This document shows, in pieces, positions 19,912 to 49,041 of a stretch of 64,000 nucleotides of DNA. The stretch spans positions 1-64,000 of the forward strand of contig CANMXP010000004.1 in NCBI GenBank assembly GCA_947501845.1. Reading direction: 5' to 3'. Made by a program: the position numbers and the translations under genes. This stretch comes from an uncultured Flavobacteriaceae bacterium. GTDB taxonomy: Bacteria > Bacteroidota > Bacteroidia > Flavobacteriales > Flavobacteriaceae. Position 1 is the first letter of the stretch, and every line of letters starts with the position of its first letter. A model generated the notes under the pieces. It did not search any database and was not told the origin of the DNA. It saw nothing but the letters and a program-made list of their open reading frames with translations.

Positions 19912-19955
19912 CAAAATTACTGTCATATCTATTGTCAAAAAATGACTTTTATCAT
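19912..19955 (-). promoter_or_regulatory. Fnr-type box and promoter of ccoS-ccoNOQP
   Basis: On the minus strand a box ATGAT-AAAA-GTCAT (19955-19942; TGAT/GTCA half-sites with 4-bp spacer) precedes a TAATTTTG -7 element (19919-19912). The TA-n2-TTTG pattern is the Bacteroidota -7 consensus. The box centre is 29.5 bp upstream of the first base of the -7 element, so the box would be near -41 relative to a start at about 19908. The same distance occurs at ccoI and pflB. Confidence 0.7.
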
Positions 19956-20012
19956 GTTCTATTCTTTATTTCCTTTTCCTGGTACTTTCCATAGGAATAG
20001 GAGTTGTTTTGT

Positions 20013-22394
20013 TTAATCAGTATCTAAGCCCTTTCCAATAATATTTGTTGCAATGGTTGTAAAGGCAACAATACTAATGGAACTAAGTGGCATCAATATA
20101 GCAGCTACAACTGGTGCTAACTGACCCGTTACTGCAAAATAAAGTCCGATAATGTTATATATAAATGAGAGTACAAAACTCCATTTGATAATTTTTATAG
20201 CAGATTTAGATATTTTTATATAATTAAATAGTTGCTTGAATTTTGAAGCGTCTAAAATAGCATCGCAGGCAGGAGAAAAAATATTTACATTTTCTGAAAT
20301 GGCAATGCCTACATCACTCTGTGCTAATGCTCCAGCATCATTTAGTCCATCACCAACCATTAATACACGAGCACCTTCGTTTTGGTGGTATTTAATATAT
20401 TCGAGCTTGTCTTCTGGTTTTTGATTGAAAAGTAACTTTGTTTTTGTTGGTAACAGTTTTGTTAAGTTATCTCTTTCTCCTGCATTATCACCAGAAAGAA
20501 TTACGAGATCGTATTCTTTTTTAAGGATGTTGAAAAGTTGGGAAATTCCTTTTCTGTAAGCATTATAAAATGTAAACTTGCCTTTGTATTGATTGTTGGT
20601 ACTCACATGAACGGTTGTATTTAATGTTGCTGTATCACTTGTATGACCAACAAAAGGAGCAGACCCTATTTTTATATTGTGGTCTTTATATTTTGCTTCT
20701 ATGCCTTTTCCTAAAAATTCTTCATAAGTATCTAGGGTAAGAATATCATGTTTGTTTAAGATGCTATACAGCGACCTGCTTAATGGATGATTAGACCCTC
20801 GTAATGTACTTTTTAGCAAGTTTTCTTCATCTAAAGAAAGCTGAGTGCCTTCATAATTTATGGATGTTTCTTTATTGGCAGTTATAGTACCTGTTTTATC
20901 AAAAATAATGGTGTTTATTTTGGCTAATTGTTCAATAACACTGGCATTTTTTAAGTAGAATTTTTTCTTTCCCAATATCCGTAAGATGTTCCCAAATGTA
21001 AAAGGAGCAGATAGGGCAATCGCACAAGGGCATGCAATAATTAATACCGAAGTAAAAACATTTAATGCTTTGCTTGAATCCGTTAATAGCCAAAAAGAAG
21101 TCGCAATTAATGCAATTGATAAAATGGCAATCGTAAAACGCTTACTAATACTATTGGTAATATTTGTAAAGGATTGTGCTTTGTCTTTTTTAAACACATC
21201 GTTACTCCAAAGTTGTGTTAAATAGCTTTGTTCTACCGATTTTAATACATCGACCTCAATACTGCCATCCAGTTGTTTTCCGCCTGCAAACAGTTTATCA
21301 CCAGATTGTTTCGATACCATTTTAGATTCACCAGTTACAAAACTATAATCTATATGAGCGGTGCCTTTTATTAAGACACAATCAACAGGAATGAGTTCCT
21401 CGTTTCTAATGAGTAATCGGTCACCTTTTTTAATGTCATACACCTGTATGGACTCTTCTTCGCCTGCTGCTGTTATTTTTGTTATTCCAATGGGGAAATA
21501 CGACTTGTAATCGCGTTCAAAAGATAAAAACGTATATGTTTTTTGCTGAAAAAATTTTCCTAGCAATAAAAAGAATATAAGACCTGTTAAGCTGTCAAAA
21601 AAGCCCGAACCTGCATCGAAAATAATTTCGGTAGTGCTTCTAACAAATAATACTAAAACACCTAAAGCAATAGGAACATCAATATTTAGAATTTTAGAAC
21701 GAAGTCCTTTAAAGGCTGAAACAAAATAATCTTGTGCAGAATAAAAAACAACAGGAAGCGAAAAGAAAAACATAAGCCATCTGAAAAGATGTTTATATTT
21801 TTCTATCCAAAAACCATCTACTTGAAAATATTCTGGAAACGATAAAAACATAACATTTCCAAAAGCGAAACCAGCAATTCCCAATTTGTATATTAAGGAG
21901 CGGTCCACATGCTTTTTGCCTACACTGTAGTCATCTAAACTTATAAAAGGCTCATAGCCAATACTGCTTAATAATGCAACCAGATTTTTTAAAGTAAGCG
22001 ATTCACTATTGAAAGTGATTCGAACATTTTTTTTACCAAAATTAACTATTGATGTGCTTATTGACGGATTTAGTTTGTTTAAGTTTTCTAAAATCCAGAT
22101 GCAAGAACTGCAATGAATATGTGGAATATATAACGTTACTATTTGAGTATCGTCGTTGTTAAATTCTAATAATTGCTCAACAATTTTAGTATTATCTAAA
22201 AAGTTGTATTTGCCCTCAATGTCTTTTGGAGTAGCTCCTGGAGCCTGTTGCAAGTCGTAGTAACAGGTTAAATCGTTTGCAGAAAAAATTTCATAAACAG
22301 TCTTACAACCATTACAACAAAATGATTTATCATCAAATATAATTGTAGAAGAAGTAGCATCTAACCCACAATGAAAACATGTGTTGTTGCCCAT
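20013..22394 (-). CDS. ccoI: Copper-translocating P-type ATPase CcoI (FixI)
   Basis: This is a roughly 793-residue P1B ATPase. It has an N-terminal Zn-finger-like segment (CFHCGLD ... FCCNGCKTVYE), an HMA domain with HCSSCIW, then membrane helices. The ion-path motif is CPC (LIIACPCAIALSAP), the phosphorylation site is FDKTGTIT, and the hinge is GDGLNDAGALAQSDVGIAI. It exports copper for cbb3 maturation. A longer frame extends to 22442. However, the promoter geometry puts a -7 element inside that extension, and MGNNTCFHCG at 22394 matches how CcoI proteins begin, so I chose 22394. It is transcribed divergently from the Crp/Fnr gene. Confidence 0.92.
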   Translation of the reverse strand: MGNNTCFHCGLDATSSTIIFDDKSFCCNGCKTVYEIFSANDLTCYYDLQQAPGATPKDIEGKYNFLDNTKIVEQLLEFNNDDTQIVTLYIPHIHCSSCIWILENLNKLNPSISTSIVNFGKKNVRITFNSESLTLKNLVALLSSIGYEPFISLDDYSVGKKHVDRSLIYKLGIAGFAFGNVMFLSFPEYFQVDGFWIEKYKHLFRWLMFFFSLPVVFYSAQDYFVSAFKGLRSKILNIDVPIALGVLVLFVRSTTEIIFDAGSGFFDSLTGLIFFLLLGKFFQQKTYTFLSFERDYKSYFPIGITKITAAGEEESIQVYDIKKGDRLLIRNEELIPVDCVLIKGTAHIDYSFVTGESKMVSKQSGDKLFAGGKQLDGSIEVDVLKSVEQSYLTQLWSNDVFKKDKAQSFTNITNSISKRFTIAILSIALIATSFWLLTDSSKALNVFTSVLIIACPCAIALSAPFTFGNILRILGKKKFYLKNASVIEQLAKINTIIFDKTGTITANKETSINYEGTQLSLDEENLLKSTLRGSNHPLSRSLYSILNKHDILTLDTYEEFLGKGIEAKYKDHNIKIGSAPFVGHTSDTATLNTTVHVSTNNQYKGKFTFYNAYRKGISQLFNILKKEYDLVILSGDNAGERDNLTKLLPTKTKLLFNQKPEDKLEYIKYHQNEGARVLMVGDGLNDAGALAQSDVGIAISENVNIFSPACDAILDASKFKQLFNYIKISKSAIKIIKWSFVLSFIYNIIGLYFAVTGQLAPVVAAILMPLSSISIVAFTTIATNIIGKGLDTD

Positions 22395-22420
22395 TATTAT
22401 TTGCTCATTTATACCTGAAA

Positions 22421-22464
22421 CAAAAGTCATAAATGATTTCACTTTATAATATGATAATTGTCAT
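22421..22464 (-). promoter_or_regulatory. Fnr-type box and promoter of ccoI in the ccoI/fnr divergent region
   Basis: The near-palindrome ATGAT-AATT-GTCAT (22451-22464) lies between ccoI and the Crp/Fnr gene. On the minus strand a GACTTTTG element (22428-22421) matches TAnnTTTG at all but the first base. It starts 29.5 bp from the box centre, exactly as at ccoS and pflB. Transcription would start near 22417, giving a 23-nt leader to the ATG at 22394. No equally placed -7 element is seen for the plus-strand regulator. Confidence 0.6.
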
Positions 22465-22500
22465 GTTTTATTTATTTTTACGGAACTTCAATTATTTGTT

Positions 22501-23178
22501 ATGGGTAAATGTGAACAGTGCATTATCAAGCAGTTTAACTCACTTAAGTCATTGACTAAGGATGAGTTGGTACGTATTTCTAATTGTAAAACCTCTTACA
22601 CTATAAAAAAGGGAACTGTTATTTTTGAAGAAGGAGAAGCAGTAAATGGCGTGTATTGTGTTAAAGATGGTATCTGTAAGCTTTCAAAATTAAGTGAAAA
22701 CGGGAAAGACCAGATCGTAAAAATGGTTGTAAAAGGTCAATTACTTGGGCAGCGTTCTCTGGTAAGCGATGAGAATTCCAATTTACAGGCAACAGCTTTA
22801 AATGATATGGAAGTTTGTTTTATTCCTAAAAGTGAAATTATTGCTGATTTACAGAAAAACCCAAAGTTTTCATATGATGTGTTGAAGGATATGGCACACG
22901 ATTTAAAAGAGGCAGATGATATCATAGTCAACATGGCTCAAAAATCTGTAAGGCAACGTCTAGCTGAAACTTTAATACATATACATAATAGTTTTGGGAT
23001 TAATCCAGATGGTACACTTAGTGTTCTGCTATCCCGTGAAGATTTTGCTAATATAGTGGGTACGGCTACAGAATCTGCTATACGGGTACTATCTCAATTT
23101 AAGAAGGAAGGACTCATTTCTACTATTGGAAAACAAATTAAGATTGAAAATATTGAAGGACTGAAACGCATAGAATAA
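22501..23178 (+). CDS. fnr: Crp/Fnr-family regulator, putative oxygen sensor
   Basis: The 225-residue regulator has an N-terminal cyclic-nucleotide-type beta-roll and a C-terminal winged HTH (LSREDFANIVGTATESAIRVLSQFKKEGLI). The recognition helix keeps the Glu and Arg of the Fnr E-x3-R pattern. Cysteines lie at 4, 7, 29, 53, 59 and 106. C4-x2-C7 resembles the Fnr cluster motif and Cys106 (EVCFIP) aligns with E. coli Cys122, but the third ligand is not at the usual short spacing. It is likely to bind the TGAY-N4-RTCA boxes found in this window. It sits divergent from ccoI, the usual place for an Fnr regulating cbb3 genes. Confidence 0.85.
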   Translation: MGKCEQCIIKQFNSLKSLTKDELVRISNCKTSYTIKKGTVIFEEGEAVNGVYCVKDGICKLSKLSENGKDQIVKMVVKGQLLGQRSLVSDENSNLQATALNDMEVCFIPKSEIIADLQKNPKFSYDVLKDMAHDLKEADDIIVNMAQKSVRQRLAETLIHIHNSFGINPDGTLSVLLSREDFANIVGTATESAIRVLSQFKKEGLISTIGKQIKIENIEGLKRIE

Positions 23179-23193
23179 TTATAATAAAGTAAA

Positions 23194-23309
23194 AAAAGTC
23201 TGAAAAATATAATTTTTGTCAGTTCGAGCGCAATCGAGAATTAAAAGAGCTCTTTTTAAAAAGGTTTCAACTACGCTCAATCTGACATTTACTTTTAGGA
23301 CTTCTTTTT
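23194..23309. repeat. REP/MITE-like intergenic element, copy 3
   Basis: The outer arms are AAAAGTCTGAAAA (left) and TTTTAGGACTTCTTTTT (right). The inner arms are GTCAGTTCGAGCG (23218-23230) and CTACGCTCAATCTGAC (around 23271-23285), and the middle is palindromic (AAAAGAGCTCTTTTT). It lies between convergent fnr and S9-peptidase genes and could serve as a bidirectional terminator. The same layout recurs at 4934 and 10461. Confidence 0.55.
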
Positions 23310-23311
23310 AT

Positions 23312-25258
23312 TTAGTTCGTTGTTTCTGCTTCTATTTCTTTTACTGGAATTTCACCATCTACAGGAGCATTTTCTTTTTTAAGATACTTGTCTAAAAACT
23401 TAAGAATACTACTATAAGCTTCAATTTGATTTTCTTTCTTAATAAAACCATGTCCTTCATCTTCAAATAAAACGTATTCTACAGGAACACCATTTTTACG
23501 AACACCAGCAACGATTTCGTCAGATTCTACCTGTAAAACCCTAGGATCTGTAGCACCCTGCAAAACAATTAATGGCTTGGTTACTTTATCGGTGTGAAAT
23601 AAAGGTGATATTCTATGAAGTCTTATAGAATCTGCTGTATGGGGATTCCCTAATTCTTTATAAAGGGCATCTTTAAAAGATTCCCACCACGGAGGAATAC
23701 TTTTAAGCGTACGAATCCAGTTTGTAACCCCAAATAAATTAACGCCTACAGCAAACTCTTCTGGCGTATAGGTTAAAGCAGCCATGGTCATGTAACCGCC
23801 ATAAGATCCACCCATAATACCAATTTTACTAGCATCGATTTCTGGTTGTGTAGCTAGCCAATTTTTACCTTCTACACAATCTTGTAAATCTTTTTCACCA
23901 TGATTAAGGTCATCCATTTGATAAAATGTTTTACCATAGCCACTACTTCCACGATTGTTTACAGCCAAAACAGCGTAGCCGTGATTTACAAGGTATTGTG
24001 TTAGAGAACTAAAGTTTTGCCTGCTTTGTCCACCTGGACCACCATGCACTAAAACAAGCGCAGGTACTTTATTTTCGGCAGATGCCTGATGCGGTAAATA
24101 ATAAATGGCAGGAATTTCTAAATCATCAAAAGATTTATATCGAATGACTTTAGCAGTAACTAAATGATTGACGTCTATATCTTTATTAAGCACATTGGTA
24201 AGCTGATGCTGTTCTTTGTTTGCAAGGTTATATGTGTATAGGTTTGAAGGACTATTAGAGCCACCAACATACATACGCATCATGGTTTCATCTCTTGAAA
24301 TACCAACACTGGTTATACTGCCGTTTTGAAAATTAGGAACTTCCAGATTTTTACCTGATGCTATATCTAGTATTTCTATGGCATTTTTGGCATCCTCATT
24401 TATAAAACTTACCATGTATTTCTCATTGTGAGTAAAATAAATACCATTTATATCCCAAGGTCTTTCCAAAACCTTTTCCTTTTCACCAGTTGCAATATTA
24501 TATTTCATAACATACGAAAACTCGGCACCATCATCTGTTGTATAGTAAAGAGTTTCACTGCTTAAAGAGAAATCCTGAGCAGAATTACCACTTTGATTTT
24601 CGTTTATTTTAGTAAGTGATTTATCAGTTCTATTATAAATAAAAATATCACTATCGTTTGTGTTTATCACTTTACTTAAGGCTAAGAGGTTTTTATCACT
24701 AGAAATAGCATTAAAATTATAACCTTCATCATTTTGGTAAATGAGTTCGGAATCCATATTCTCGATGGTCATTTCATAAACGTCCATATAACGTTTATCT
24801 CTTTTATTAGAGCCGTATAAAAAACTCTTTCCGTCGTGAGACCAACCATAAAAGGAAGCTCTAGCCTCTTTATCTGGCGTTAGTTCTGTTATAGAGCTAT
24901 CAATATCACGCAAATATAAATGATATATTTCATCGCCATTGTTATCGGCTCTGTACAGCATACGTTCATCATTTGGAAAATAAGAAATGCCAAAAATTGA
25001 TGAAGAATCTGAAGCCGTTATAGCCGTAAATTCACCACCTGTTGTAGGAACTGTGTACATATTATAAATCCCAGATCGGTTACTGGAGACTAATAATTTT
25101 GATTTGTCTGGAGAAAAACTTCCTCCACCTACAGCTTCATTATCCATGAACTGTTCGATCGTATACGCTTTTAAATTAAGAGCGACTTCTTTGGTTTGTT
25201 TCTCCTTTTTACAAGAGAAAAACAAAACTAGAAGGACTAAGGTTACCAGTTTATTCAT
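23312..25258 (-). CDS. S9-family serine peptidase (prolyl-oligopeptidase/DPP-like) lipoprotein
   Basis: The 648-residue protein has a lipoprotein signal (MNKLVTLVLLVLFFSC, lipid Cys16), a TolB/WD-like beta-propeller (about 45-365) and a C-terminal alpha/beta-hydrolase domain. The nucleophile is Ser485 in GIMGGSYGGYMT. The acid is likely Asp in VLQGATDPRV and the His is in EDEGHGF. The substrate is probably short peptides. The propeller contains the repeated SDHDGKSF/SPDKSKLLV-type blades. It is 2 nt downstream of the BNR-propeller gene, so the two are co-transcribed and probably both act outside the inner membrane. Confidence 0.9.
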   Translation of the reverse strand: MNKLVTLVLLVLFFSCKKEKQTKEVALNLKAYTIEQFMDNEAVGGGSFSPDKSKLLVSSNRSGIYNMYTVPTTGGEFTAITASDSSSIFGISYFPNDERMLYRADNNGDEIYHLYLRDIDSSITELTPDKEARASFYGWSHDGKSFLYGSNKRDKRYMDVYEMTIENMDSELIYQNDEGYNFNAISSDKNLLALSKVINTNDSDIFIYNRTDKSLTKINENQSGNSAQDFSLSSETLYYTTDDGAEFSYVMKYNIATGEKEKVLERPWDINGIYFTHNEKYMVSFINEDAKNAIEILDIASGKNLEVPNFQNGSITSVGISRDETMMRMYVGGSNSPSNLYTYNLANKEQHQLTNVLNKDIDVNHLVTAKVIRYKSFDDLEIPAIYYLPHQASAENKVPALVLVHGGPGGQSRQNFSSLTQYLVNHGYAVLAVNNRGSSGYGKTFYQMDDLNHGEKDLQDCVEGKNWLATQPEIDASKIGIMGGSYGGYMTMAALTYTPEEFAVGVNLFGVTNWIRTLKSIPPWWESFKDALYKELGNPHTADSIRLHRISPLFHTDKVTKPLIVLQGATDPRVLQVESDEIVAGVRKNGVPVEYVLFEDEGHGFIKKENQIEAYSSILKFLDKYLKKENAPVDGEIPVKEIEAETTN

Positions 25259-25260
25259 AT

Positions 25261-28200
25261 CTAATTGGTTTTAAATGATTTTACGTCTTTAAATGGGGAT
25301 AATTTTATATTTTCTACTGAATTTTTGTAGGTTTTCCATTCTTTATCAAAAAATGCATTTGTTTTATCAAGCCCATGTTTTAAGGCTTCTTTGGCATGTT
25401 TTATTAAGGTGGTTTCTGTTGAGGTTAACCCATTTTGTCTGGATTTAATATAGCCATTTGCTGAATTTATTCGTTGATTAATAGTGATTTCTGGATTACG
25501 GGTAATCCCTTGTCTTTTGTCTTCTTTTCCTAAAAACAGGTTAATAATCGTATCAATATCCTTAATAATATCGTTTGAGGCCTTTATTTGATCTTTGTAT
25601 AACGCTTTGTCTAATTTTTTTAAATCAGATTGATACTTTTTGGCAATTTGTTTGCTTTCGGCCAATTGCCTTACAGCATCTGCCATGGTCTGTATCATGC
25701 TTTCAATAACTTTTGAAGCATTGTACACCTCATTGATGGCGCTGTCTGATTTATTTAAACGTGGATCGTTTCTAACAGTAATCATTTCTTCCGAGGTTTG
25801 GTCTCCAAAATTCAATACTATTTTATAGGTACCTGGTTTTACTTTAACGCCTCCAGGCTCATTTTTATTTTTGCTAATTTTTCTAGAAGCTCTATTTGGT
25901 CCCTTTTCATTTAAATACCAAGTCCATTTATGTATTCCCGTTTCTTTAGGTGCTTTTCGCTTCAATGTTCTTATTAAACGGTCTCCGTCATAAATTTTCA
26001 TAATTAATGAATCCCATTTGACTACATTTTTATCATCACCCTGAACTTGTTTCTGGGGCTCGTCATCTTTTTCATCATCATCATCATTTTCAGTGGAAGA
26101 TTCTTTTTTATCAATGGTTACATAATAAGATATTCGTGCACCAGATTTTCTGTTTTTTCCATGATATATTGCATCGGCACCAAAGCGGGTACCAGTTGGT
26201 TGTTGATAAGCTGCAAGGTAGGCTGTAGGTGGTTGAAATAGTTTTAGTTTTCGATTGAATATATCCTGGTTTTTTGCCATAGCCCGTAATGGACGAATAT
26301 CGTCTAAAACCCAAGCTGCACGACCAAAAGTTCCAATAATTAAGTCATGCTCTCGTTGGTGAATAACTAAATCTTTTACAGGAACCGTAGGGAAGCCTTC
26401 GGTCCATTTAGTCCATTTATTTCCTGCATCTAATGATATATATAAACCATCGTCGGTACCTAAAAATAATAGATTAGCGTTCTTGGGATCTTCTATTATC
26501 GACAATGTATAGCTTTTTACATCCTTGTCATCAACGATACGCTGCCATGTTTTACCATAATTTTTAGTTTTGTAAGCATAAGGCGTGTAGTTAAAACGTC
26601 TATAATCATTAGCTATTAAAAGTGCTTCTCCTTTATTTTTATTAGATGCTTTTATTTGCGGAATCCAACTCCCAGAAGGTAAGCCTTTAATATTTTTTGT
26701 AACATCGATATAAGTCTGTCCACCATTTTGAGTCATATGAACACGACCATCATCTGTACCAATCCAAAACATATCTTTTTCCAGGGGAGAGGGTTCAATA
26801 ACTAAAATAGTACAGTAGTTTTCTGCCCCTGTAGCATCCATTGTTAATCCACCGCTTTCGTTTTGTTTCTGTTTTTCTGGATCATTTGTTGTTAAATCTT
26901 TAGAAATAATTTCCCATGTTAAGCCTTTGTCGGTAGATTTATGAACAAATTGGCTCCCAAAATAGATAGTACTGGAATTGAAAGGATCAATATTAATAGC
27001 AGAATTCCAATTAAATCTGAGTTTTACATTAGGATCTGGGTGCGTCGGTTTTACGGTATAATTATTTCCAGTTTCAGAATCGTATCTACTTACAAAACCT
27101 TGTTGGCTCATAGACCAGCCAAATCGGGAATTTTCTTTGTCTGGAACCACATCAAAGCCATCACCAAAACTTATTTCCTGCCAGTAAGAGTTTCTAATGC
27201 CTTGTGAACGCCATACATAAGCAGGTCCTTTCCATGAACCATTGTCCTGCATGCCTCCATAAACATTATAAGGAATATCATTATCTATATTAATATGATA
27301 AAATTGTGCTACGGGTAGATTGCCTATAAATCGCCAAGTTTTACCACCATCTTTCGTAATATTTAATCCACCATCATTACCATCTATCATAAAATCTCCA
27401 TTGTTTGGATGTATCCACCAGGCATGGTGATCTGGATGAATACCATTATTAGCTCCATACGCAGGCATAAGCTGCGAAAAATTCTTTCCACCATCTTCAC
27501 TAACATTTACATAGGTATATATACTGTAAAGCCGATTTTCATTTTGTGGATCTACGTAGATTTCGGAATAGTAGAAAGGACGATTGCCAATACCGCTTTT
27601 ACCATTTATTTTTTTCCATTTAAAACCGCCATCTTCGCTTTTATAGAGTGCATTCTTTTTAGCTTCAACAAGTGCATAAATAGTATTGGGTTTGTTTGCG
27701 GCAATGGCAATGCCTATGCGACCTAGATTCCCTTTGGGTAAACCATCTTCGTCACTTAGTCTTTTCCAGGTTTCTCCTCCATCATGTGTGATATGCAATC
27801 CAGAGCCTTCTCCTCCCGAATTAAAAAACCATGGGTCACGTTTATGTTCCCACATAGCAGCGATGAGTTTATTTGGATTTGTTGGATCCATAACCAAATC
27901 GGCTGCTCCAGTTTTATTATTTATAAATAATATTTTATTCCATGTTTTACCGCCATCGGTTGTTTTATAAACGCCACGTTCTGGGTGGATACCCCAGGGA
28001 GATCCAATAGCAGCAACATACACGGTATTGGGATTTGTTGGATCAATAACAACACGGTGTATATGGCGTGTTTTTTCTAAACCCATTAGCACCCAATTTT
28101 TACCGCCATCTAATGATTTATAAATACCATAACCGCCATTTAAGCTATTTCTCGGGTTTCCTTCACCTGTTCCAGCCCAAATAACACTAGGGTTAGATTG

Positions 28201-28479: not shown

Positions 28480-28584
28480 TTAATGATTTGATTAGTTTTA
28501 ATAAAGGTAAGAAAAACTTATCGTGAGAATCTTAATGAGATGTTAATATAGTATTTTAGAAAAATATAGTATTTTTATAGAGCT

Positions 28585-29715: not shown

Positions 29716-29783
29716 AAACGAAACCAGAGGGTTCAGATGGGTTTGAAAATGTTAAAAAACACCTCTTTCTTTCATTTTTTTAT

Positions 29784-29958
29784 TAAAATTGAAATTCATT
29801 CTCCTCTTTAATTAAAGAGGAGAACAGTAATAATAAAGCTAAAGGCTCATTAGGAGGAAGTATATTAAAGAGTAATGATTAGAAATATAAATAGAACTTG
29901 CTCCTCCCTTATTTTTTGAGGGAGGAGGATTCTGATAACTATCGAGATTCGGAGGGTT
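29784..29958. repeat. Two-hairpin intergenic element, copy A
   Basis: The element has a perfect palindrome CTCCTCTTTAA/TTAAAGAGGAG at 29801-29822. About 80 nt later comes a second hairpin, CTCCTCCCTTA/GAGGGAGGAG (29901-29927), and then the tail ATTCGGAGGGTT (29947-29958). Element B at 30345-30516 repeats all three parts in the same order and orientation. The tail ends 12 nt before the ATG of the DUF559 pseudogene. Confidence 0.7.
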
Positions 29959-30332: not shown

Positions 30333-30344
30333 AACATCACTCTC

Positions 30345-39137: not shown

Positions 39138-39186
39138 AATTAAATAAAAAGGTTCTTAATAGTTTGTTAATGTTTTAATTTGAGAT

Positions 39187-40521: not shown

Positions 40522-40594
40522 ATTTTATCTAATTTATTTAGTATAATTAAGGTTTGGAATAACTAGATTTAAAAGATACAGTAACGAGAAATAT

Positions 40595-40637
40595 AAAAAA
40601 AATAAAAGCGCCTCGAAAATAAATTCTAAGCGCTTTT
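40595..40637 (-). terminator. Rho-independent terminator of the fad operon
   Basis: On the minus strand AAAAGCGC pairs with GCGCTTTT (40637-40630 with 40611-40604) across an 18-nt loop, followed by a T-rich run (40603-40595). It lies 35 nt beyond the acyl-CoA dehydrogenase stop. Confidence 0.75.
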
Positions 40638-40671
40638 AAAATTGAGTTAGTCACAAATTATGTCATTTATA

Positions 40672-42483
40672 CTAAAAACAGTATTTATTTTCTTTAATTA
40701 CTTTTTCGGCAATAATATGCCTTAATTCAATGATGTTTGGCATGTTAACATATTTAATATAGCGCTTTAGCCCCATAAGCATCATGCGTTGCTCATCACC
40801 AGTAGAAAATGAAATGATGGAATGTTTACCAGCAGTTTCAATAACATCAATTGCATGGAATAAGTTTAGTTTTGCCATGGCTATTTGCTCTTTAGCATGG
40901 TCTTCACCTTCTTTTTTGGCTATTTTCTCTGCACGGAGAATGGCAGATTCAGCCAAATAGATCTGAATTAATATATCTGAAGCAGCCAACATTAATTGTT
41001 GTTGTTCTTCAATTTTTTCACCGTATTTCTGTAAAGCGGCTCCAGCTACCATCAAGAAGAGTTTTTTTAGATTCTTTATGATATTTTTTTCTTCAGAAAA
41101 TAATTCAGAATAATCAGGGACATCAAAAGATGGAATGCCTACCAATTCATCTTTAACTGCCATGGCAGGTGTTAGTACATCTACATGACCTTTCATGGCT
41201 TTTTTAATAAGCATACCTATTGAAAGCATTCTATTTATTTCATTAGTACCTTCGTAAATTCTTGCTATACGGGCATCTCTCCAAGCGGATTCAATAGGCG
41301 TTTCTTCAGAAAATCCCATGCCTCCAAATATTTGAATACCTTCATCTGTACACCTTTGTGTGTACTCTGAAACGGCGACTTTTAAAATAGAACATTCAAT
41401 AGCATATTCTTCAACACCTTTTAGTTCTGCTTCTTGGTGTGTGTCCTTACCATTATGCTTTCTAAGTTCAATACGATCTTCAATATTTTTTGCAGCTCTA
41501 TAACTAGCGGCTTCACCAACCCAACAGTTGGTTGCCATTTCTGCTATTTTTTGGCGGATAGCTCCAAAACTAGAAATAGGTGTTTTAAATTGAATACGCT
41601 CATTAGCATATTTAACAGATTCCGTAATGGTGCGTCTTTGAGCATCCAAACATGCAGCTGCTAATTTAATTCTTCCTACGTTTAACGCATTCATAGCTAT
41701 TTTAAAGCCATTTCCCCTTGTGGATAACATATTTTCAATAGGAACAACAGTATCATTAAAGAATACTTGCCTTGTTGACGATGCACGAATCCCTAGTTTG
41801 TGTTCCTCTTCACCCATGGTAATACCATTTGGGTTTTCTTGGTCATATTCAACAATAAATCCTGTAATATTTTTATCATCTTCAATACGTGCAAAAACAA
41901 TCATCAAACTACAGAAACCAGCATTAGAAATCCACATTTTTTGTCCAGTAATGCTATAACTTTTTCCGTCAGCAGCGAGTACTGCTTTTGTTTTACCAGA
42001 ATTGGCATCACTACCAGCACTAGGTTCTGTTAAACAATAGGCGCCAAACCATTCTCCCGAAGCTAGTTTAGGAACATATTTTTGCTTCTGCTCTTCAGTA
42101 CCATAAAGTGTAATTGGCATGGTTCCTATACCTGTATGAGCACCAAACGCTGTACTAAAAGAGCCAGTAGCTCCAGAAATATAATCACAAACCAGCATGG
42201 TATCTACAAAGCCCATACCCATACCACCGTATTCTGCAGGGACGGAAACACTTAAAAACCCGAGCTCTCCAGCTTTTTGCATACACGATTCTGTTAAGGC
42301 ATAATCCTTTTTTTCAAATTGTGCTTTTTTTGACCAAACTTCTCTATCGACAAATTCGGTTACAGCTTCTTTCATCATTAACTGGTCCTCATTAAAATCT
42401 TCGGGGGTGAATATATCTTGACAATTGGTTTCTTTTACTAAGAATTGTCCGCCGCGTAAAATATCTTTTTCTGTTGCTTCCAT
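40672..42483 (-). CDS. fadE: Acyl-CoA dehydrogenase (FadE-type)
   Basis: The 603-residue flavoprotein carries out the first step of fatty-acid beta-oxidation. It has the N-terminal helical domain (FVDREVWSKKAQFEKK), the acyl-CoA dehydrogenase signatures GAYCLTEPSAGSDANSGKTKA (FAD binding) and SNAGFCSLMIVFARIE, and RDARIARIYEGTNEINRML. It is about 200 residues longer than short-chain dehydrogenases, with an extra C-terminal helical domain, as in the Bacillus FadE type. It is the last gene of marR-fadN-fadA-fadE. A two-hairpin element lies directly before its start. Confidence 0.92.
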   Translation of the reverse strand: MEATEKDILRGGQFLVKETNCQDIFTPEDFNEDQLMMKEAVTEFVDREVWSKKAQFEKKDYALTESCMQKAGELGFLSVSVPAEYGGMGMGFVDTMLVCDYISGATGSFSTAFGAHTGIGTMPITLYGTEEQKQKYVPKLASGEWFGAYCLTEPSAGSDANSGKTKAVLAADGKSYSITGQKMWISNAGFCSLMIVFARIEDDKNITGFIVEYDQENPNGITMGEEEHKLGIRASSTRQVFFNDTVVPIENMLSTRGNGFKIAMNALNVGRIKLAAACLDAQRRTITESVKYANERIQFKTPISSFGAIRQKIAEMATNCWVGEAASYRAAKNIEDRIELRKHNGKDTHQEAELKGVEEYAIECSILKVAVSEYTQRCTDEGIQIFGGMGFSEETPIESAWRDARIARIYEGTNEINRMLSIGMLIKKAMKGHVDVLTPAMAVKDELVGIPSFDVPDYSELFSEEKNIIKNLKKLFLMVAGAALQKYGEKIEEQQQLMLAASDILIQIYLAESAILRAEKIAKKEGEDHAKEQIAMAKLNLFHAIDVIETAGKHSIISFSTGDEQRMMLMGLKRYIKYVNMPNIIELRHIIAEKVIKENKYCF

Positions 42484-42487
42484 TTTT

Positions 42488-42586
42488 CCTAACCCTAACC
42501 CTTTCCAAAGGAAAGAGAACTTGTGGGTGCTTTTTAATTAATAATTTATTTTCAATTGTTCCTCCCTTTAGGGGAGGTTAGGTGGG
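42488..42586. repeat. Two-hairpin intergenic element, copy C (upstream of fadE)
   Basis: In the minus direction ACCTCCCCTAAAGGGAGG (42578-42561) is followed after about 45 nt by CTTTCCTTTGGAAAG (42515-42501) and the tail GGGTTAGGGTTAGG (42501-42488). The tail ends 4 nt before the fadE ATG at 42483. The layout (two C/G-rich hairpins, then a purine-rich tail next to a start codon) matches copies A, B and D. Confidence 0.6.
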
Positions 42587-42590
42587 ACTT

Positions 42591-43781
42591 CTAATTTAAA
42601 AACTCGAAAATCCCACAAGCGCCTTGACCAGTACCTACGCACATAGTGACAGCACCATATTTTCCTTTCATATCGCGTTTACGCATTTCATCAAATAACT
42701 GTACGGACAATTTAGCCCCTGTACAACCAAGAGGGTGCCCTAGCGCTATGGCACCTCCATTCACATTTATAATATCTGGGTTGAGGTTTAACTCTCTAAT
42801 AACAGCTAGAGATTGCGATGCAAATGCTTCATTTAATTCGATGAGCTCTAAATCCGATTGCTGTAAACCTGCTTGTTTTAATGCTTTTGGAATGGCTTTT
42901 ACAGGGCCAATACCCATAATACGTGGCTCAACACCAGCGGCTGCATAGTTTACTAAGCGTGCAATAGGCTCTAGGTTTAGTTCTTTTACCATGTCTTCAC
43001 TCATAACCATAACAAAAGCTGCTCCATCACTCATTTGGGAAGAGTTTCCTGCAGTTACGCTACCGCCAGCTGCAAATACTGCTCGTAATTTTGCTAAAGC
43101 TTCTTTGTTGGTTCCTGCACGAGGTCCTTCATCTTTTGATACGGTATATGATTTAGTGGCTTTCTTTCCGTTTGCATCTATATAAGTTTGTTCCACTTCT
43201 ATAGGGACAATTTGATCTTGAAAACGGTTTTCTGCTTGTGCTTTTAAAGCTTTCATATGCGAATTATAAGCAAATTCATCTTGGTCTTCACGAGATACTT
43301 TAAACTGATTTGCAACTGCTTCAGCTGTATTTCCCATGCCCCAATAATAATCCTCATGCCCAGCTTTTACTATGTCGTAATTTAGCTCTGGTTTAAAACC
43401 TGTCATAGGTACAGCACTCATACTTTCTGCACCTCCAGCAATAATACAATCGGCCATTCCAGATTGAATTTTTGCTGTTGCGATACCAATGGTTTCAATA
43501 CCCGATGAGCAAAAACGATTTACAGTAACTCCTGGAATATCAACACTGTTTAATCCCATCAAAGAGATGAGACGTGCCATGTTTAAACCTTGAGACCCTT
43601 CGGGCATGGCATTCCCAACAATCACGTCATCAATACGGGTTTTGTCTAATTGCGGCAATTCTTTCATCATGAATTGAATGGTTTCTGCAGCCAGTTCATC
43701 AGTTCTTTTAAAGCGAAATACACCTTTAGGAGCTTTCCCAACGGCTGTTCTGTATGCTTTTACGATATATGCTTGTTTCAT
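42591..43781 (-). CDS. fadA: Acetyl-CoA acyltransferase (3-ketoacyl-CoA thiolase)
   Basis: The 396-residue thiolase has the nucleophile Cys in VNRFCSSGIETI, the catalytic His in NVNGGAIALGHPLGCTG, and the second Cys in GTGQGACGIFEFLN near the C-terminus. It cleaves 3-ketoacyl-CoA to acetyl-CoA and a shortened acyl-CoA. It lies between fadN and fadE, separated from both by two-hairpin elements rather than by overlapping ends. Confidence 0.95.
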   Translation of the reverse strand: MKQAYIVKAYRTAVGKAPKGVFRFKRTDELAAETIQFMMKELPQLDKTRIDDVIVGNAMPEGSQGLNMARLISLMGLNSVDIPGVTVNRFCSSGIETIGIATAKIQSGMADCIIAGGAESMSAVPMTGFKPELNYDIVKAGHEDYYWGMGNTAEAVANQFKVSREDQDEFAYNSHMKALKAQAENRFQDQIVPIEVEQTYIDANGKKATKSYTVSKDEGPRAGTNKEALAKLRAVFAAGGSVTAGNSSQMSDGAAFVMVMSEDMVKELNLEPIARLVNYAAAGVEPRIMGIGPVKAIPKALKQAGLQQSDLELIELNEAFASQSLAVIRELNLNPDIINVNGGAIALGHPLGCTGAKLSVQLFDEMRKRDMKGKYGAVTMCVGTGQGACGIFEFLN

Positions 43782-43782
43782 T

Positions 43783-43889
43783 CCTCTCCCTAACCCTCTC
43801 CAAAGGAGAGGGAATTGTCACGGGTTTGTTTTTAGTTATACATTATATTTATCTTATATTTTGGTGCCTTCCCTTAGGGGAGGTTGGGG
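43783..43889. repeat. Two-hairpin intergenic element, copy D (upstream of fadA)
   Basis: In the minus direction CCTCCCCTAAGGGAAGG (43883-43867) is followed after about 55 nt by CCCTCTCCTTTGGAGAGGG (43812-43794) and the tail TTAGGGAGAGG (43793-43783). The tail abuts the fadA ATG at 43781. It resembles copy C closely and copies A/B in architecture. Confidence 0.65.
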
Positions 43890-43892
43890 ATT

Positions 43893-46301
43893 TTAGTTTC
43901 TAAGCGCTTTCCCCGTCTTCAACATATGCTGTATCCGTTCTAATGTTTTACGCTCCGTACATAAACTTAAGAAAGCTTCACGCTCTAGGTCTAATAAATA
44001 TTGCTCAGTAACTAGAGTAGGTTCTGATAAATCACCTCCTGCCATCACGTAGGCTAATTTGTTTGCTATTTTATGGTCATGTTCACTTATATAATTTGCA
44101 GCTTCCATAGAATCGGTTCCAACTAAAAACATGCCTAAAGCTTGTTTACCTAGCACTTTAACATCTTTACGTTTAACGGGTTGTGTATAACCAGCATCTG
44201 CCATTAACTTAGCATGCGCTTTTGCTGTGGCTATTTGCCTGTCTTTATTAATAACGACAATGTCTTTTCCTTTTTGAAGTACCCCCATATCGAAAGCTTC
44301 ATAGGCAGATGTTGCTACTTTTGCCATACCTATAGTTAAAAAGTATTCTTGTAGCGTATTTAACTCTACATCACCTTTTCTAAACGTATCTGAAGCCCTT
44401 AAAGCCATTTCTTTGGATCCAGCTCCACCAGGAATAACACCAACTCCAAACTCAACTAAGCCAATATAAGTTTCAGCGGCAGCGACTACCTTATCGGCGT
44501 GCATAGATAATTCGCAGGCACCTCCTAAAGACATGCCATGTGGTGCCGAAATGGTTGGGATAGACGAGTAGCGCATACGCATCATGGTATCTTGAAAATA
44601 CTTGATTGCAGCATTAAGCTCGTCATATTCCTGTTCTACGGCCATCATGAATATCATACCAATATTGGCGCCAACTGAGAAATTGGCGCCTTGGTTACCA
44701 ACAATTAATCCCCGATATTCTTTTTCAGCCAAATCAATGGCTTTATTAAGTCCTGCTAAAACATCTCCTCCAATGGTATTCATTTTAGATTGGAATTCGC
44801 AATTTAATATGCCATCTCCTAAATCTTCTATGACTACACCAGAGTTTTTAAATACTTCATTTGATGTTCTTATATTATCTAAGATGATGAAAGCATCCTG
44901 ACCTGGTATTTTTTCTTGTGTTTTCTTCGGAATATGGTAAGTATATGTCGCACCTTCTTTAACAGAGTAGAATGACTTACTTCCCGCATTTAACATATCG
45001 TTTACCCAAGATGCAGGTGCTAAACCTTCGGCTTCCATCATTTTAATACCTTCTTTCACACCAATGGCATCCCAAATTTGGAAAGGTCCATGTTCCCAAC
45101 CAAAACCAGCTTTCATGGCATCATCAATCTTATATAAATCATCTGTTATTTCGGGAATACGATTAGAAACGTAGGCGAATAAGGCGGTGAAGCTTTTTCT
45201 ATAAAATTCTCCTGCTTTATCCTTGCCAGAAACCAGTATTTTAAACCGATCTACAACCTTATCAATAGGTTTAGTAAGTTCTAAGGTCGCAAATTTCGCT
45301 TTTTTCGCAGAACGGTATTCTAAGGTGTTCAAATCTAAGGATAGAATTTCTTTTTTACCTTCGGCAGACACCGTTTTTTTATAAAATCCTTGTCCAGTTT
45401 TGCTCCCTAACCATTTATTTCCCATCATGGTATCGATGAAATCTGGTAGTTTAAAAAGCTCTAAACGTTCATCTTCTTTACAGTTTTCTGCAATGCCGTT
45501 TGCTACATGTACTAAAGTGTCTAATCCAACAACATCAACGGTCCTAAATGTTGCAGATTTTGGTCGGCCAATAACAGGCCCCGATAATTTATCAACTTCC
45601 TCAATAGTTAATCCCATATCTTTAACGGTATGGAATAAACTCATAATACTAAAGATACCAATACGATTTCCAATAAAGGCAGGTGTGTCTTTTGCAACTA
45701 CAGATGTTTTACCTAGAAATTGCTCACCATATCCATTAAGGAATTCTAAAACCGAATCATCGGTTTTTGGTCCAGGAATAATTTCGAATAACTTTAAGTA
45801 ACGTGCAGGATTAAAAAAGTGTGTTCCGCAGAAATGTTTCTGAAAATCTTCACTTCTCCCATCACTCATAAACTTAATGGGAATACCAGACGTATTACTA
45901 GTAATTAAAGTACCTGGAGTTCTATGTTTTTCTAACGATTCAAAAACTTGCTGCTTTATATCTAACCGTTCAACCACTACTTCCATAATCCAATCAGCGT
46001 CAGCAACTTTTGCAATATCATCTTTCAGATTACCAGTCGTAATACGATTTGCAAATTTAGGGTGATAAATTGGGGAAGGCTTTGATTTTAACGATGCAGC
46101 AAGAGCATTGTTAACCAATCTGTTTCGTACGCTTTTATCTTCAAGTGTTAAACCTTTAGATTGCTCTTTATCATTTAGTTCTCTTGGAACTATGTCAAGT
46201 AATAAAACATCTACGCCTATATTAGCGAAATGGCATGCGATACCACTTCCCATAATACCTGAGCCAATAATGGCCACTTTTTTTATTCTACGTTTGCTCA
46301 T
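43893..46301 (-). CDS. fadN: 3-hydroxyacyl-CoA dehydrogenase / enoyl-CoA hydratase (FadN-type)
   Basis: The 802-residue bifunctional enzyme has the dehydrogenase first: Rossmann GSGIMGSGIACHFANIGVDV (residues about 10-30), HFFNPARYLKLFEIIPG with the catalytic His, and a C-terminal HAD region. The enoyl-CoA hydratase domain (about 510-700, SAPHGMSLGGACELSMHADKV with the oxyanion loop, then GLVEFGVGVIPGGAGS) comes second. This order is the FadN type, opposite to E. coli FadB. It catalyses hydration and NAD-dependent oxidation in beta-oxidation. The order fadN-fadA-fadE matches the Bacillus operon. It starts 9 nt after marR. Confidence 0.92.
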   Translation of the reverse strand: MSKRRIKKVAIIGSGIMGSGIACHFANIGVDVLLLDIVPRELNDKEQSKGLTLEDKSVRNRLVNNALAASLKSKPSPIYHPKFANRITTGNLKDDIAKVADADWIMEVVVERLDIKQQVFESLEKHRTPGTLITSNTSGIPIKFMSDGRSEDFQKHFCGTHFFNPARYLKLFEIIPGPKTDDSVLEFLNGYGEQFLGKTSVVAKDTPAFIGNRIGIFSIMSLFHTVKDMGLTIEEVDKLSGPVIGRPKSATFRTVDVVGLDTLVHVANGIAENCKEDERLELFKLPDFIDTMMGNKWLGSKTGQGFYKKTVSAEGKKEILSLDLNTLEYRSAKKAKFATLELTKPIDKVVDRFKILVSGKDKAGEFYRKSFTALFAYVSNRIPEITDDLYKIDDAMKAGFGWEHGPFQIWDAIGVKEGIKMMEAEGLAPASWVNDMLNAGSKSFYSVKEGATYTYHIPKKTQEKIPGQDAFIILDNIRTSNEVFKNSGVVIEDLGDGILNCEFQSKMNTIGGDVLAGLNKAIDLAEKEYRGLIVGNQGANFSVGANIGMIFMMAVEQEYDELNAAIKYFQDTMMRMRYSSIPTISAPHGMSLGGACELSMHADKVVAAAETYIGLVEFGVGVIPGGAGSKEMALRASDTFRKGDVELNTLQEYFLTIGMAKVATSAYEAFDMGVLQKGKDIVVINKDRQIATAKAHAKLMADAGYTQPVKRKDVKVLGKQALGMFLVGTDSMEAANYISEHDHKIANKLAYVMAGGDLSEPTLVTEQYLLDLEREAFLSLCTERKTLERIQHMLKTGKALRN

Positions 46302-46310
46302 TTTATACGA

Positions 46311-46754
46311 CTAATCGTTTTGATTATATATTTTTTTGTTTGTCACCAGTTCATTAATAACTTCAGCGACTTCGTAAAAATTGTTTATCTTTTCTTCAGA
46401 AATATTATTCCTAATAGTTTCATTAAATGTTAAAACTTTATCTCTTGAATATGTTCTTTTCTCAAGACCAAATTCTGTGAGAGAAATAATAACACCACGA
46501 CCATCTTTTGGATTGGGTTTACGTTCAATGAGTCCTTTAGATTCCATAGTTTTCAATATTCTTGACAAACTTGTGGCTTCCATCCCCATTTTAGGTCCTA
46601 AAGCGGTTGATGGTGTTCCTTTTTCTGGATCTATACTCAATAAAGTAAAGCCCGTTGCCATAGTACTATCAAATTTTGCAGCCTCTTCATTATACATTTT
46701 TTGTACTGCAAGCCATGTTGTCCTTAGTATATAGTCAATTGTTTTATCTTTCAT
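46311..46754 (-). CDS. MarR-family transcriptional regulator
   Basis: The 147-residue winged-helix regulator shows PKMGMEATSLSRILKTMESKGLIERKPNPKDGRGVIISLTEFG, the recognition helix plus wing with the DxR motif. Flanking helices form the dimer interface. It is the first gene of the fad operon (9 nt before fadN). A perfect palindrome in its own promoter suggests it represses itself and the operon, probably released by acyl-CoA. Confidence 0.9.
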   Translation of the reverse strand: MKDKTIDYILRTTWLAVQKMYNEEAAKFDSTMATGFTLLSIDPEKGTPSTALGPKMGMEATSLSRILKTMESKGLIERKPNPKDGRGVIISLTEFGLEKRTYSRDKVLTFNETIRNNISEEKINNFYEVAEVINELVTNKKIYNQND

Positions 46755-46771
46755 AATATCTGGTTGGTGAC

Positions 46772-46810
46772 CAAAGATATGAAAAATTTATTATGCACGC
46801 ATAATAAATT
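46772..46810 (-). promoter_or_regulatory. Putative MarR operator and fad promoter
   Basis: AATTTATTATGC (46785-46796) and GCATAATAAATT (46799-46810) form a perfect 12-bp inverted repeat with a 2-bp centre. A -7 element TATCTTTG (46779-46772, minus strand) begins 6 nt downstream. The operator thus covers the -33 region, a repressor position. Transcription would start near 46768, with a 14-nt leader to the marR ATG. Confidence 0.7.
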
Positions 46811-46866
46811 GTATAAAAATTAACACATTTTAGTTGAGAGAGTATTGAAAATGTGTCACATGATTT

Positions 46867-48642
46867 TTAAAGTTCTGGCCTGTAGATTTTTTCTATTAAA
46901 TCTACATATTTAGCCTTAATCACTTTTCTTTTCATTTTCATTGTAGGCGTTAAGTGGCCAGCATCAATTGACCAGATATCTGGGGTTATTTCGAATTTTT
47001 TAATCTGTTCCCACTTACCAAAGTTTTTATTGGCATCGTCAATTTCTTCTTGAATACGTTCCAATAACTGTGGGTTGGTAATGATGTCGTTTTTAGATTG
47101 GAAGGTTATGTTGTGTCGTCTTCCCCATTCTTCAACAAATTCGAAATTAAGTTGGATTAATGCGGCAGGCATTTTTTCGCCTTCTCCAATAATCATTATT
47201 TGTTCAATAAATCTTGATTGTTTAAATTGATTCTCCAATAGGGCAGGAGCTACATATTTACCACCAGATGTTTTGAACATTTCTTTTTTACGATCGGTAA
47301 TTTTTAAGAAGTTGTCATCATCAACTTCTCCAATATCACCTGTATGGAAATAATTTTCAGTCATTACCTCCTTTGTTTTTTCTAAATCCTTATAATAACC
47401 AAGCATGATATTTGGACCTTTAACTAAAATTTCTCCATCATCTGCTATTTTAACTTCAACATTATCAATAATCCGACCAACGGTTCCAATTTTAATGCCT
47501 CTATTAAAGGGACAATTTACAGAAACTACGGGAGATGTTTCTGTTAATCCATATCCTTCGAGTATTTCCATTTTGGCAGCAGAAAACACCCTGATTAATC
47601 GCTGTTGTAATGCAGCACTTCCAGATACCAAAGTGTTAATATTTCCTCCTAAAGCATCTCGCCATTTATTGAAAATAAGTTTATTTGCTATTTTTAATTG
47701 AAATTCATACCACCATCCGTTCTTGCCATAAGGCTCATGTTTTAAGCCTAAGTTTACTGCCCAAAAAAACAATATCTTTTTTATGCCTTTTAATTCTGCT
47801 CCTTTAGCAATTATTTTATCGTACATTTTTTCATAAAGCCTAGGAACAGCAGTCATGATATGCGGTTTAATTTCTTTTAAGTTATCACTTATGGTTTCGA
47901 TACTCTCTGCAAAATATATTTCAATACCACAATATTGGTACAAGTACAATATCATTCTTTCAAAAACATGGCATATCGGCAAGAAGCTTAATGCTTTAGA
48001 TTTACCTGTTTCTAAAGGGACTCTAGACATGCTGTCCAGAACATTTGATACCAAGTTGTTATGAGATAGCATAACGCCTTTTGGCTTACCAGTGGTACCC
48101 GATGTATATATTATAGTCGCTAAATCATTAGGATTAACAGCTTCTTTTCTAGAATCAACTTCACTTTGATTGCCAGTATCTTCACCTAATTTTAAAACTT
48201 CTTTCCAATTGCTTTCACCATTAATATCATTAAAAGTGTATACGCCTTTAAGCTTTGTATTGCTTTTAATAGCATTGAGTTTCTCCAAAACCTCTACATC
48301 TGAAACAAAACAATAAATGGCCTCAGAATGATTTAAAATATATTCATAATCTTCTGCAGCTATCGTTGGATAAATTGGGACATTTTGCGCACCAATTTGA
48401 AGAATTCCTATATCTAAAACATTCCATTCGGTTCTATTTGTTGAAGAAATTACAGCAATCTTATCATTTAATTGAACCCCCAAACGTAATAACCCTCTAC
48501 TAATAGCATTGGCTTGGTTAATATATTCTTGAGTCGAAATAGAATGCCATTCACCATTATACTTAGAAGTGAATGCTTTATCTAAATTATAAGTTTCTAA
48601 CTGATAATAGGGAAAATCAAAAATTCTTGTAACGTTTGCCAT
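46867..48642 (-). CDS. Long-chain fatty-acid CoA ligase (AMP-forming)
   Basis: The 591-residue adenylate-forming enzyme has the P-loop-like motif IIYTSGTTGKPKGVMLSHNN, then EGYGLTETSP, the YFHTGDIGEVD hinge and ITDRKKEMFKTSGGKYVAP. It activates fatty acids to acyl-CoA and feeds the downstream fadNAE enzymes. It ends 112 nt before marR and is transcribed from its own promoter. The C-terminal lysine is in MKMKRKVIK. It is in the group often named FadD or FAA1-like. Confidence 0.9.
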   Translation of the reverse strand: MANVTRIFDFPYYQLETYNLDKAFTSKYNGEWHSISTQEYINQANAISRGLLRLGVQLNDKIAVISSTNRTEWNVLDIGILQIGAQNVPIYPTIAAEDYEYILNHSEAIYCFVSDVEVLEKLNAIKSNTKLKGVYTFNDINGESNWKEVLKLGEDTGNQSEVDSRKEAVNPNDLATIIYTSGTTGKPKGVMLSHNNLVSNVLDSMSRVPLETGKSKALSFLPICHVFERMILYLYQYCGIEIYFAESIETISDNLKEIKPHIMTAVPRLYEKMYDKIIAKGAELKGIKKILFFWAVNLGLKHEPYGKNGWWYEFQLKIANKLIFNKWRDALGGNINTLVSGSAALQQRLIRVFSAAKMEILEGYGLTETSPVVSVNCPFNRGIKIGTVGRIIDNVEVKIADDGEILVKGPNIMLGYYKDLEKTKEVMTENYFHTGDIGEVDDDNFLKITDRKKEMFKTSGGKYVAPALLENQFKQSRFIEQIMIIGEGEKMPAALIQLNFEFVEEWGRRHNITFQSKNDIITNPQLLERIQEEIDDANKNFGKWEQIKKFEITPDIWSIDAGHLTPTMKMKRKVIKAKYVDLIEKIYRPEL

Positions 48643-48997
48643 TTGCTATAGTTTCTTGTATTGCAAAATATGAAATTAAAAAGGATTTTCAAATTGAACT
48701 TGAAAATAGAATTCTATAGAACGGTTTATGAATACTTTAGAAAACATATTTATTGATTTCTAAATTTGGGGTATTGTATTTCACTATTTATTGCGAATTA
48801 ACTTGAATAATTTGATTTTTTTTTAATAATTATGAAAATCACATCTAATTATTCATAATAAATAACAAAATCACATGAAATTCATGTCTTTATTAAATTA
48901 TTATATAAACAAAGCTTAAAAGTTTGTGTATTTCATTTTTTTAAAGGTGTTACTCAAACGTTTTCGTTGAAAAATCAATAAAAAAATCGTGGGTTTA
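48643..48997. other. Gene-free AT-rich stretch between the acyl-CoA ligase and pflB
   Basis: The 355 nt are very AT-rich. Apart from the promoter of the minus-strand ligase near 48.65-48.7 kb, which I cannot pin down, I see no gene, RNA gene or clear repeat. The pflB promoter begins at its right end. Confidence 0.5.
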
Positions 48998-49041
48998 CTG
49001 ACAATTGTCAGCTTTATAGTTGCATCCAGTATATAACTTTG
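48998..49041 (+). promoter_or_regulatory. Fnr-type box and promoter of pflB
   Basis: A perfect 14-bp palindrome CTGACAATTGTCAG (48998-49011) contains TGAC-AATT-GTCA. A -7 element TAACTTTG lies at 49034-49041. The palindrome centre is 29.5 bp before the first base of the -7 element, as at ccoS and ccoI. The start would be near 49045, placing the box at about -41 and leaving a 47-nt leader. No good -33 TTG is seen, as expected for an activator-dependent promoter. Confidence 0.8.

Follow-up and report, generated by a model that had tools for sequence, protein, structure and literature searches.

The 64,000-bp stretch analysed here (the window; positions 1 to 64,000 of contig CANMXP010000004.1, assembly GCA_947501845.1) comes from an uncultured Flavobacteriaceae bacterium and carries three Fnr-type boxes, before the cbb3 oxidase genes ccoS and ccoI and before the formate fermentation gene pflB, each at the same distance from a -7 promoter element. 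Does this layout mark a regulon that joins respiration and fermentation at low oxygen, and does the Crp/Fnr-type regulator encoded at position 22501 read it? The layout is very probably that of an FNR-type low-oxygen regulon, and we consider it likely that the boxes are class II operators of such a regulon of the Flavobacteriaceae, with the 22501 regulator as their main reader in this genome. The recurring layout is general across the family and has lineage-specific features of an FNR-type class II regulon. A one-line code readable from a genome sequence predicts low-oxygen promoters, one of them in front of a Sec-dependent nitrous oxide (N2O) reductase cluster, and the fixed layout across the family opens a little-studied network of low-oxygen control to direct tests.

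The boxes and promoter elements of the window are the following.

19943..19954, minus strand: Fnr-type box TGATAAAAGTCA, upstream of ccoS-ccoNO
19912..19919, minus strand: -7 element TAATTTTG of the ccoS promoter, a perfect TAnnTTTG; start predicted at about 19907
22452..22463, minus strand: Fnr-type box TGACAATTATCA of the ccoI promoter (complement TGATAATTGTCA on the plus strand)
22421..22428, minus strand: -7 element GACTTTTG of ccoI, TAnnTTTG-like; start predicted at about 22416
22473..22480, plus strand: TATTTTTA, candidate -7 element of the regulator gene, 9 bp from the ccoI box
48999..49010, plus strand: Fnr-type box TGACAATTGTCA, upstream of pflB
49034..49041, plus strand: -7 element TAACTTTG of pflB, a perfect TAnnTTTG; start predicted at about 49046

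The gap between box and -7 element is exactly 23 bp at ccoS, ccoI and pflB, with 29.5 bp from the box centre to the first base of the -7 element. The window holds ten box positions (20 orientations), and a -7 element scoring at least five of six stands at that distance only at these three. The initial annotation had claimed three boxes with equal 29.5-bp spacing, and all three were found at exact coordinates; its wording 'TAnnTTTG-like' is apt, given two perfect -7 elements and a G for the first T at ccoI. The start sites that it gave (about 19908, 22417 and 49045) each lie at most 1 bp from our predictions, which assume a -7 element at -12 to -5.

We scanned for the pattern TGAYN4RTCA-N23-TAnnTTTG, with the reversed pattern as control. 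The source genome (5.37 Mb) has 10 exact matches at gap 23 and 1 for the reversed control. Over gaps of 8-38 bp there are 25 matches (reversed control 18), of which gap 23 accounts for ten, gap 24 for three and any other gap for at most two. None of the ten gap-23 sites lies within an open reading frame (ORF) of at least 100 amino acids (aa); three begin on the TGA stop codon of the upstream gene, and one runs into the end of the longest ORF call on the opposite strand. Among the matches at other gaps, 10 of 15 fall in ORFs of at least 60 aa. Across 60 Flavobacteriaceae genomes the pattern occurs 503 times at gap 23, compared with 9 times for the reversed control, while 20 other gaps together yield 403 matches (mean 20.15 each), so that gap 23 is favoured 25-fold; the reversed control gives 259 over all 21 gaps together. 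At least one gap-23 match is present in 56 of the 60 family genomes and, at the order level, a match in 72 of 118. The equal spacing hence exceeds chance in the genome itself and in the family. A strict gap of 23 bp only is ruled out, since the 150 matches listed in the gap scan comprise 75 at gap 23, 16 at 24, 10 at 32, 8 at 22 and 7 at 15, and two relatives use 22 at ccoI. Sites at gap 24 that end in TATATTTG occur in several genera among the matches listed.

For activators of the Crp/Fnr type, -41.5 is the class II position. The boxes share the palindromic core TGA-N6-TCA, and the -7 element TAnnTTTG lies at -12 to -5 in Flavobacterium psychrophilum, according to the accessible text of PMC9723704, which places the box centre at -41.5. 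The preference for gap 23 together with this published -7 position puts the predicted centre near -41.5. The class II placement proposed by the initial annotation is thus supported by the genome- and family-wide statistics, by the published -7 position and by the recurrence of this layout in relatives, at ccoI, ccoS and pflB.

These loci of the relatives are related, not independent, and their counts are to be read as such (L and G numbers below are our labels for loci and genomes). A perfect box with gap 23 stands directly upstream of the regulator gene, facing ccoI, in 66 of 80 named relatives, and a ccoI box with gap 23 is found in 75 of the 80 when the search follows ccoI. The remaining 14 at the regulator comprise one mismatched box (L083), two loci with gap 22 (L130, L131) and 11 without an adjoining ccoI; in nine of these 11 the box sits before the displaced ccoI, in L110 none was found and L124 gave no ccoI match. 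In 69 of 80 relatives the ccoI gene adjoins that of the 22501 regulator, and the ccoI -7 element never begins with T in the 67 relatives that have the box at gap 23. At ccoS, 67 of the 68 loci with a ccoS match carry the box, N23 and a -7 element of five or six of six, and the one miss (L138) has a site in a later search; five ccoS loci carry TATTTTTA in place of the perfect -7 element. The pflB gene is present in 12 of the 60 family genomes, eight of which (own included) have a perfect box, N23 and TAnnTTTG; of the other four, L156 has a degenerate version of the box at this gap, and no box at threshold with a -7 element at that gap stands before pflB in L158, L159 and L160. Because the aligned ccoI- and ccoS-type sites had been chosen by their perfect box and near-perfect -7 element, both blocks are conserved by construction. 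Their unselected flanks are nevertheless invariant, with A before the box and T after it, and the linker varies (mean 0.6-0.8 bits).

On its other side, the ccoI box faces the promoter of the regulator gene. In 56 of 68 relatives the best TAnnTTTR element facing the regulator stands 9 bp from the box, and the box centre lies at about -27.5 of the regulator's own promoter, where a bound protein should block polymerase. Where genes intervene between ccoI and the regulator (L118, L125-L129, L132, L139, L140), the box stays with ccoI. The regulator is left without a box once ccoI has moved away, which makes the box at the regulator an optional by-product; the idea of a conserved autoregulatory box there is weakened accordingly, as the displaced ccoI keeps it.

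In sequence, the box departs from that of E. coli FNR, TTGAT-N4-ATCAA. Among 137 family sites, the position just after the box holds T 98 times, A 15 times, C 13 times and G 11 times; these sites are the 150 listed (of 503 in total) less 11 rows of a same-genus genome and 2 of G145. Every ccoI- and ccoS-type site has A before the box; of the ten sites of the source genome, six have A there, two T and two C. These counts make the half-site mostly ATGAY, not TTGAT; the outer T of the E. coli type is not what was found, and an E. coli-type FNR box is rejected on the flanking base. In 127 of 137 regulator sequences the recognition helix is TESxIR, with close variants in the rest, and in FNR it is VETISR; Glu and Arg are retained and Ser is replaced, and the replaced Ser may go with the changed outer base of the box.

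The genes behind the sites are those of low-oxygen and anaerobic respiration and of fermentation. Pyruvate formate-lyase (PFL), Pta-AckA, HemN and NosZ are FNR-like targets. Exact sites in the source genome precede pflB, ccoS, pta-ackA (L036) and hemN (L039), and another (L032) precedes the cytochrome c gene that opens a nosZ cluster, whose NosZ matches TIGR04246 and is Sec-dependent. The further exact targets are a thioredoxin-like protein, a GH2 glycosidase, an NAD-binding protein and two proteins without a family. With one mismatch allowed, the source genome has 43 sites (the ten exact ones included) and the control 14, by which about one third may be noise; the context of 30 of the 43 was inspected. 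One-mismatch sites belong to ccoI, to a molybdopterin-oxidoreductase (nap-type) operon, to a universal stress protein and to a malate/lactate dehydrogenase, and some lie in ORFs. The link between cbb3 respiration and formate fermentation that the initial annotation had drawn is supported in this way, and widens to pta-ackA, hemN and nos. At the nos cluster, an Rrf2-like regulator gene (recognised by eye; L032:6203-6703, minus strand) diverges from it, and the single box between the two has a -7 element on either side, at gap 23 facing nos and gap 24 facing the regulator (L001, L011).

What, then, is the protein encoded beside ccoI?

22501..23178, plus strand: Crp/Fnr-type regulator of 225 aa, candidate Fe-S oxygen sensor (PF00027 and HTH_Crp_2)

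It has a cNMP-binding fold and a Crp HTH, as FNR proteins do, and its best NCBI family match is the Fnr model NF008365, at 94.4 bits and below the cut-off of 228. The structure model has a mean predicted local distance difference test score (pLDDT) of 90.7 and places C53 in strand 50-56 and C106 in strand 103-109, which we take, from the Crp jelly roll, to be neighbouring strands. In a Foldseek search, Porphyromonas gingivalis 2gau ranked first (template modelling score, TM, 0.87) and Aliivibrio fischeri FNR 5e44 ranked 17th (TM 0.81), among many Crp-fold matches. All 137 regulator sequences have the cysteines C4, C7, C53 and C106, with C29 and C59 variable, and the same four are invariant among 64 sequences in another alignment. 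Aligned with A. fischeri FNR, whose ligands we take to be C20, C23, C29 and C122, the regulator has C4, C7 and C106 at C20, C23 and C122 and N13 at C29, and C53 stands opposite a non-cysteine. The invariance of C53 suggests a swapped Fe-S ligand. The best evidence for this is the opposite choice made by one sibling, an Fnr beside a nap-type cluster of the same genome (L033:4666-5424, G000:C1), which has an N-terminal CxxCx4C, keeps the C106 equivalent and has Phe at position 53. For the Crp/Fnr superfamily, the four invariant cysteines mark out a candidate arrangement of Fe-S ligands that would be new. Near the nap-linked sibling, the moeA promoter has a box at gap 24 (L010).

Whether the box depends on an Fnr-like protein at all can be judged from genomes that lack one. 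Four family genomes have no Fnr-like match and G147 has one weak match (E 6e-5), and the sites in these five number 1, 0, 0, 0 and 0, compared with a mean of 9.7 in the 38 genomes with an ortholog of the 22501 regulator. A Mann-Whitney p of 1.4e-4 depends on these five genomes and takes no account of relatedness. A CcoNO match above 40% identity is missing from all five.

Several observations weigh against a regulon with the 22501 protein as its main reader. Regulator and CcoNO were lost together in the five genomes, so that the absence of the regulator is confounded with the absence of its targets. The 17 of 60 genomes without a close ortholog still have a mean of 7.9 sites (the group was set by hand; G153 has a truncated ortholog, G131 and G150 a 41% relative). 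Fourteen of the 22 ortholog-less genomes (17 + 5), all among the 17, have a fused CcoNO at 77% or more, and 13 of the 14 keep the cco box with gap 23 (six with TTTA for TTTG; G148 has none). Sites are also few in some genomes that do have the ortholog, namely two in G136 and three each in G125, G134 and G152. At ccoI itself the -7 element is imperfect. The position of FNR C29 is N, S or T in 137 of 137 regulators, so that Fe-S binding is putative, and 2 of the 10 proteins behind exact sites matched no family. Two sites of the source genome (L006 and L008, 1501-1543 each) begin on the TGA stop of a preceding Crp-like gene, with T before the box, and may answer to those local Crp-like regulators, one of which was recognised by eye and one by sequence match.

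Boxes kept in ortholog-less genomes mean that the 22501 protein is not required for the layout, and the reading of a single regulator is rejected on these genomes. A more pointed alternative is that box and class II spacing are real and the 22501 regulator is a minor reader, with the nap-linked Fnr or, in relatives, receiver-Fnr fusions as the main ones, and with nitrate, nitric oxide (NO) or phosphorylation possibly as the signal in place of oxygen sensed by the 22501 protein. Besides the persisting sites and cco boxes, it draws on the proteins that the ortholog-less genomes do have: in 13 of the 14 with cbb3, Crp/Fnr matches lie in open frames of at least 350 aa, all four of the fusion proteins scanned in relatives have receiver, cNMP and HTH_Crp_2 domains, and 14 aligned receiver fusions keep the E..IR recognition residues while the four-cysteine set is absent save one C at position 7. 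A box directly follows the stop codon of the receiver fusion at 11 of 14 loci (L218-L231, e.g. L220:1371-2414), or at six of nine when the five loci chosen because a box had already been seen beside them (G137, G144, G126, G155, G061) are set aside; the gene after the fusion encodes a universal stress protein in two of two scanned. The second Fnr with CxxCx4C, adjoining the nap-type cluster, puts a possible competitor in the source genome too. Against this stand the absence of any frame of about 350 aa among the six Crp/Fnr matches of the source genome, the adjoining of ccoI and the 22501 regulator in most relatives, and the slightly higher number of sites in genomes with the ortholog (9.7 versus 7.9). 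We regard this alternative as unlikely, though the most serious of those considered. The 22501 regulator is probably not the sole reader of the boxes, and the simplest interpretation is that several sensors share a single operator code. The tie of the regulon to this regulator, which the initial annotation had put forward tentatively, gains from its place beside ccoI and from plausible recognition residues and loses from the boxes that persist without an ortholog; we, too, can only infer it.

Activation itself could be doubted if the box were a repressor operator that overlaps the promoter at a fixed place by happenstance. FNR represses some promoters, and the ccoI box covers the regulator's own promoter at a repressing position. 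A repressor would, however, tolerate many positions, and the family has 503 sites at -41.5 and only about 20 at each other gap, which makes this explanation improbable. Still further down comes the view that the equal spacing is an effect of chance or composition in an AT-rich genome. Single matches are indeed cheap at 33% G+C and with a loose six-base -7 consensus, but the reversed controls gave 1 and 9 where the pattern gave 10 and 503, few sites occur without Fnr-like proteins and the layout recurs in relatives; chance spacing is refuted by the reversed-pattern and other-gap controls, and we give it next to no weight.

Under the preferred reading of an FNR-type class II regulon, a Crp/Fnr dimer would bind ATGAY-N4-RTCAT centred at -41.5 and activate the housekeeping RNA polymerase at TAnnTTTG (-12 to -5). 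This would switch on the high-affinity cbb3 oxidase (ccoS-ccoN, ccoI), formate and acetate fermentation (pflB-pflA, pta-ackA), oxygen-independent heme synthesis (hemN) and N2O reduction (nos). The main reader in the source genome would be the 22501 regulator, presumably active at low oxygen through a labile Fe-S cluster that C4, C7 and C106 (FNR C20, C23 and C122) may hold together with C53 in place of C29. From its place at about -27.5 of the regulator promoter, the ccoI box should repress the regulator gene. A broader proposal is that a re-wired FNR sensor, its oxygen-labile cluster bound by an N-terminal CxxC plus C53 and C106 on beta strands and with C53 taking over from the third N-terminal ligand of FNR, goes with an ATGAY-N4-RTCAT code common to Fe-S FNR, to the classical-type nap-linked FNR and to receiver-Fnr fusions, so that oxygen, nitrogen-oxide and kinase signals converge on the same promoters; for this we put the chances at about even.

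The closest known systems are the proteobacterial FNR, FnrL and Anr regulons, which have in common with the present one a Crp-fold dimer, a TGA..TCA core, a centre at -41.5 and the targets pfl, hemN, cbb3 and nos; three of the four cluster cysteines of FNR align with those of the 22501 regulator. The differences are that the outer base here is mostly A/T and not T/A, the promoter element is a -7 TAnnTTTG and not a -10 TATAAT, the C29 ligand is missing with an invariant C53 instead, and the recognition helix is E..IR and not E..SR. Fnr of Bacillus subtilis has three C-terminal cysteines and an aspartate as ligands in the accessible text of PMC3520743, and Fnr of B. subtilis and B. cereus resembles our protein as an FNR-type regulator with a ligand set unlike that of E. 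coli. In contrast to these C-terminal cysteines, the protein described here has its CxxC at the N-terminus, with C53 and C106 in beta strands of the structure model. The sigma-A promoters of F. psychrophilum have the same -7 element, and its cbb3 oxidase and heme synthesis genes are induced at low oxygen; the accessible text of that study does not name an Fnr regulon, and its main text has 0 occurrences of 'crp' (PMC9723704). For an anammox microbiome, the accessible text of PMC8510549 puts Flavobacteriales CRP/FNR homologs in a MalR group, predicts carbon sensing and takes four FNR cysteines as the mark of FNR. These homologs, likened here by description only, are likewise Flavobacteriales CRP/FNR proteins under cycling oxygen.

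The genes of the window around the three promoters are as follows.

14871..16295, minus strand: ccoG (TIGR02745)
16361..17299, minus strand: probable ccoP, CxxCH cytochrome subunit of the ccoS-ccoNO operon (from position and sequence only)
17499..19694, minus strand: ccoN/ccoO, fused cbb3 oxidase subunit I/II (NF011053)
19706..19891, minus strand: ccoS, 61 aa (TIGR00847)
20013..22394, minus strand: heavy-metal P-type ATPase, CcoI by context (TIGR01494 above cut-off)
49092..51317, plus strand: pflB, formate C-acetyltransferase (TIGR01255)
51365..52144, plus strand: pflA, PFL-activating enzyme (TIGR02493)

For CcoI, copper and heavy-metal subfamily models match with scores below their cut-offs. 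The longest ccoI ORF call begins at a GTG at 22442, within the promoter, and the real start is probably the ATG at 22392-22394. The nearest named record is Flavivirga algicola, with a regulator that is 100% identical over 225 aa and a ccoS box that differs by one base. A major-facilitator-type transporter (recognised by eye) follows pflA at 52183-53439 on the plus strand and may export formate or a related acid.

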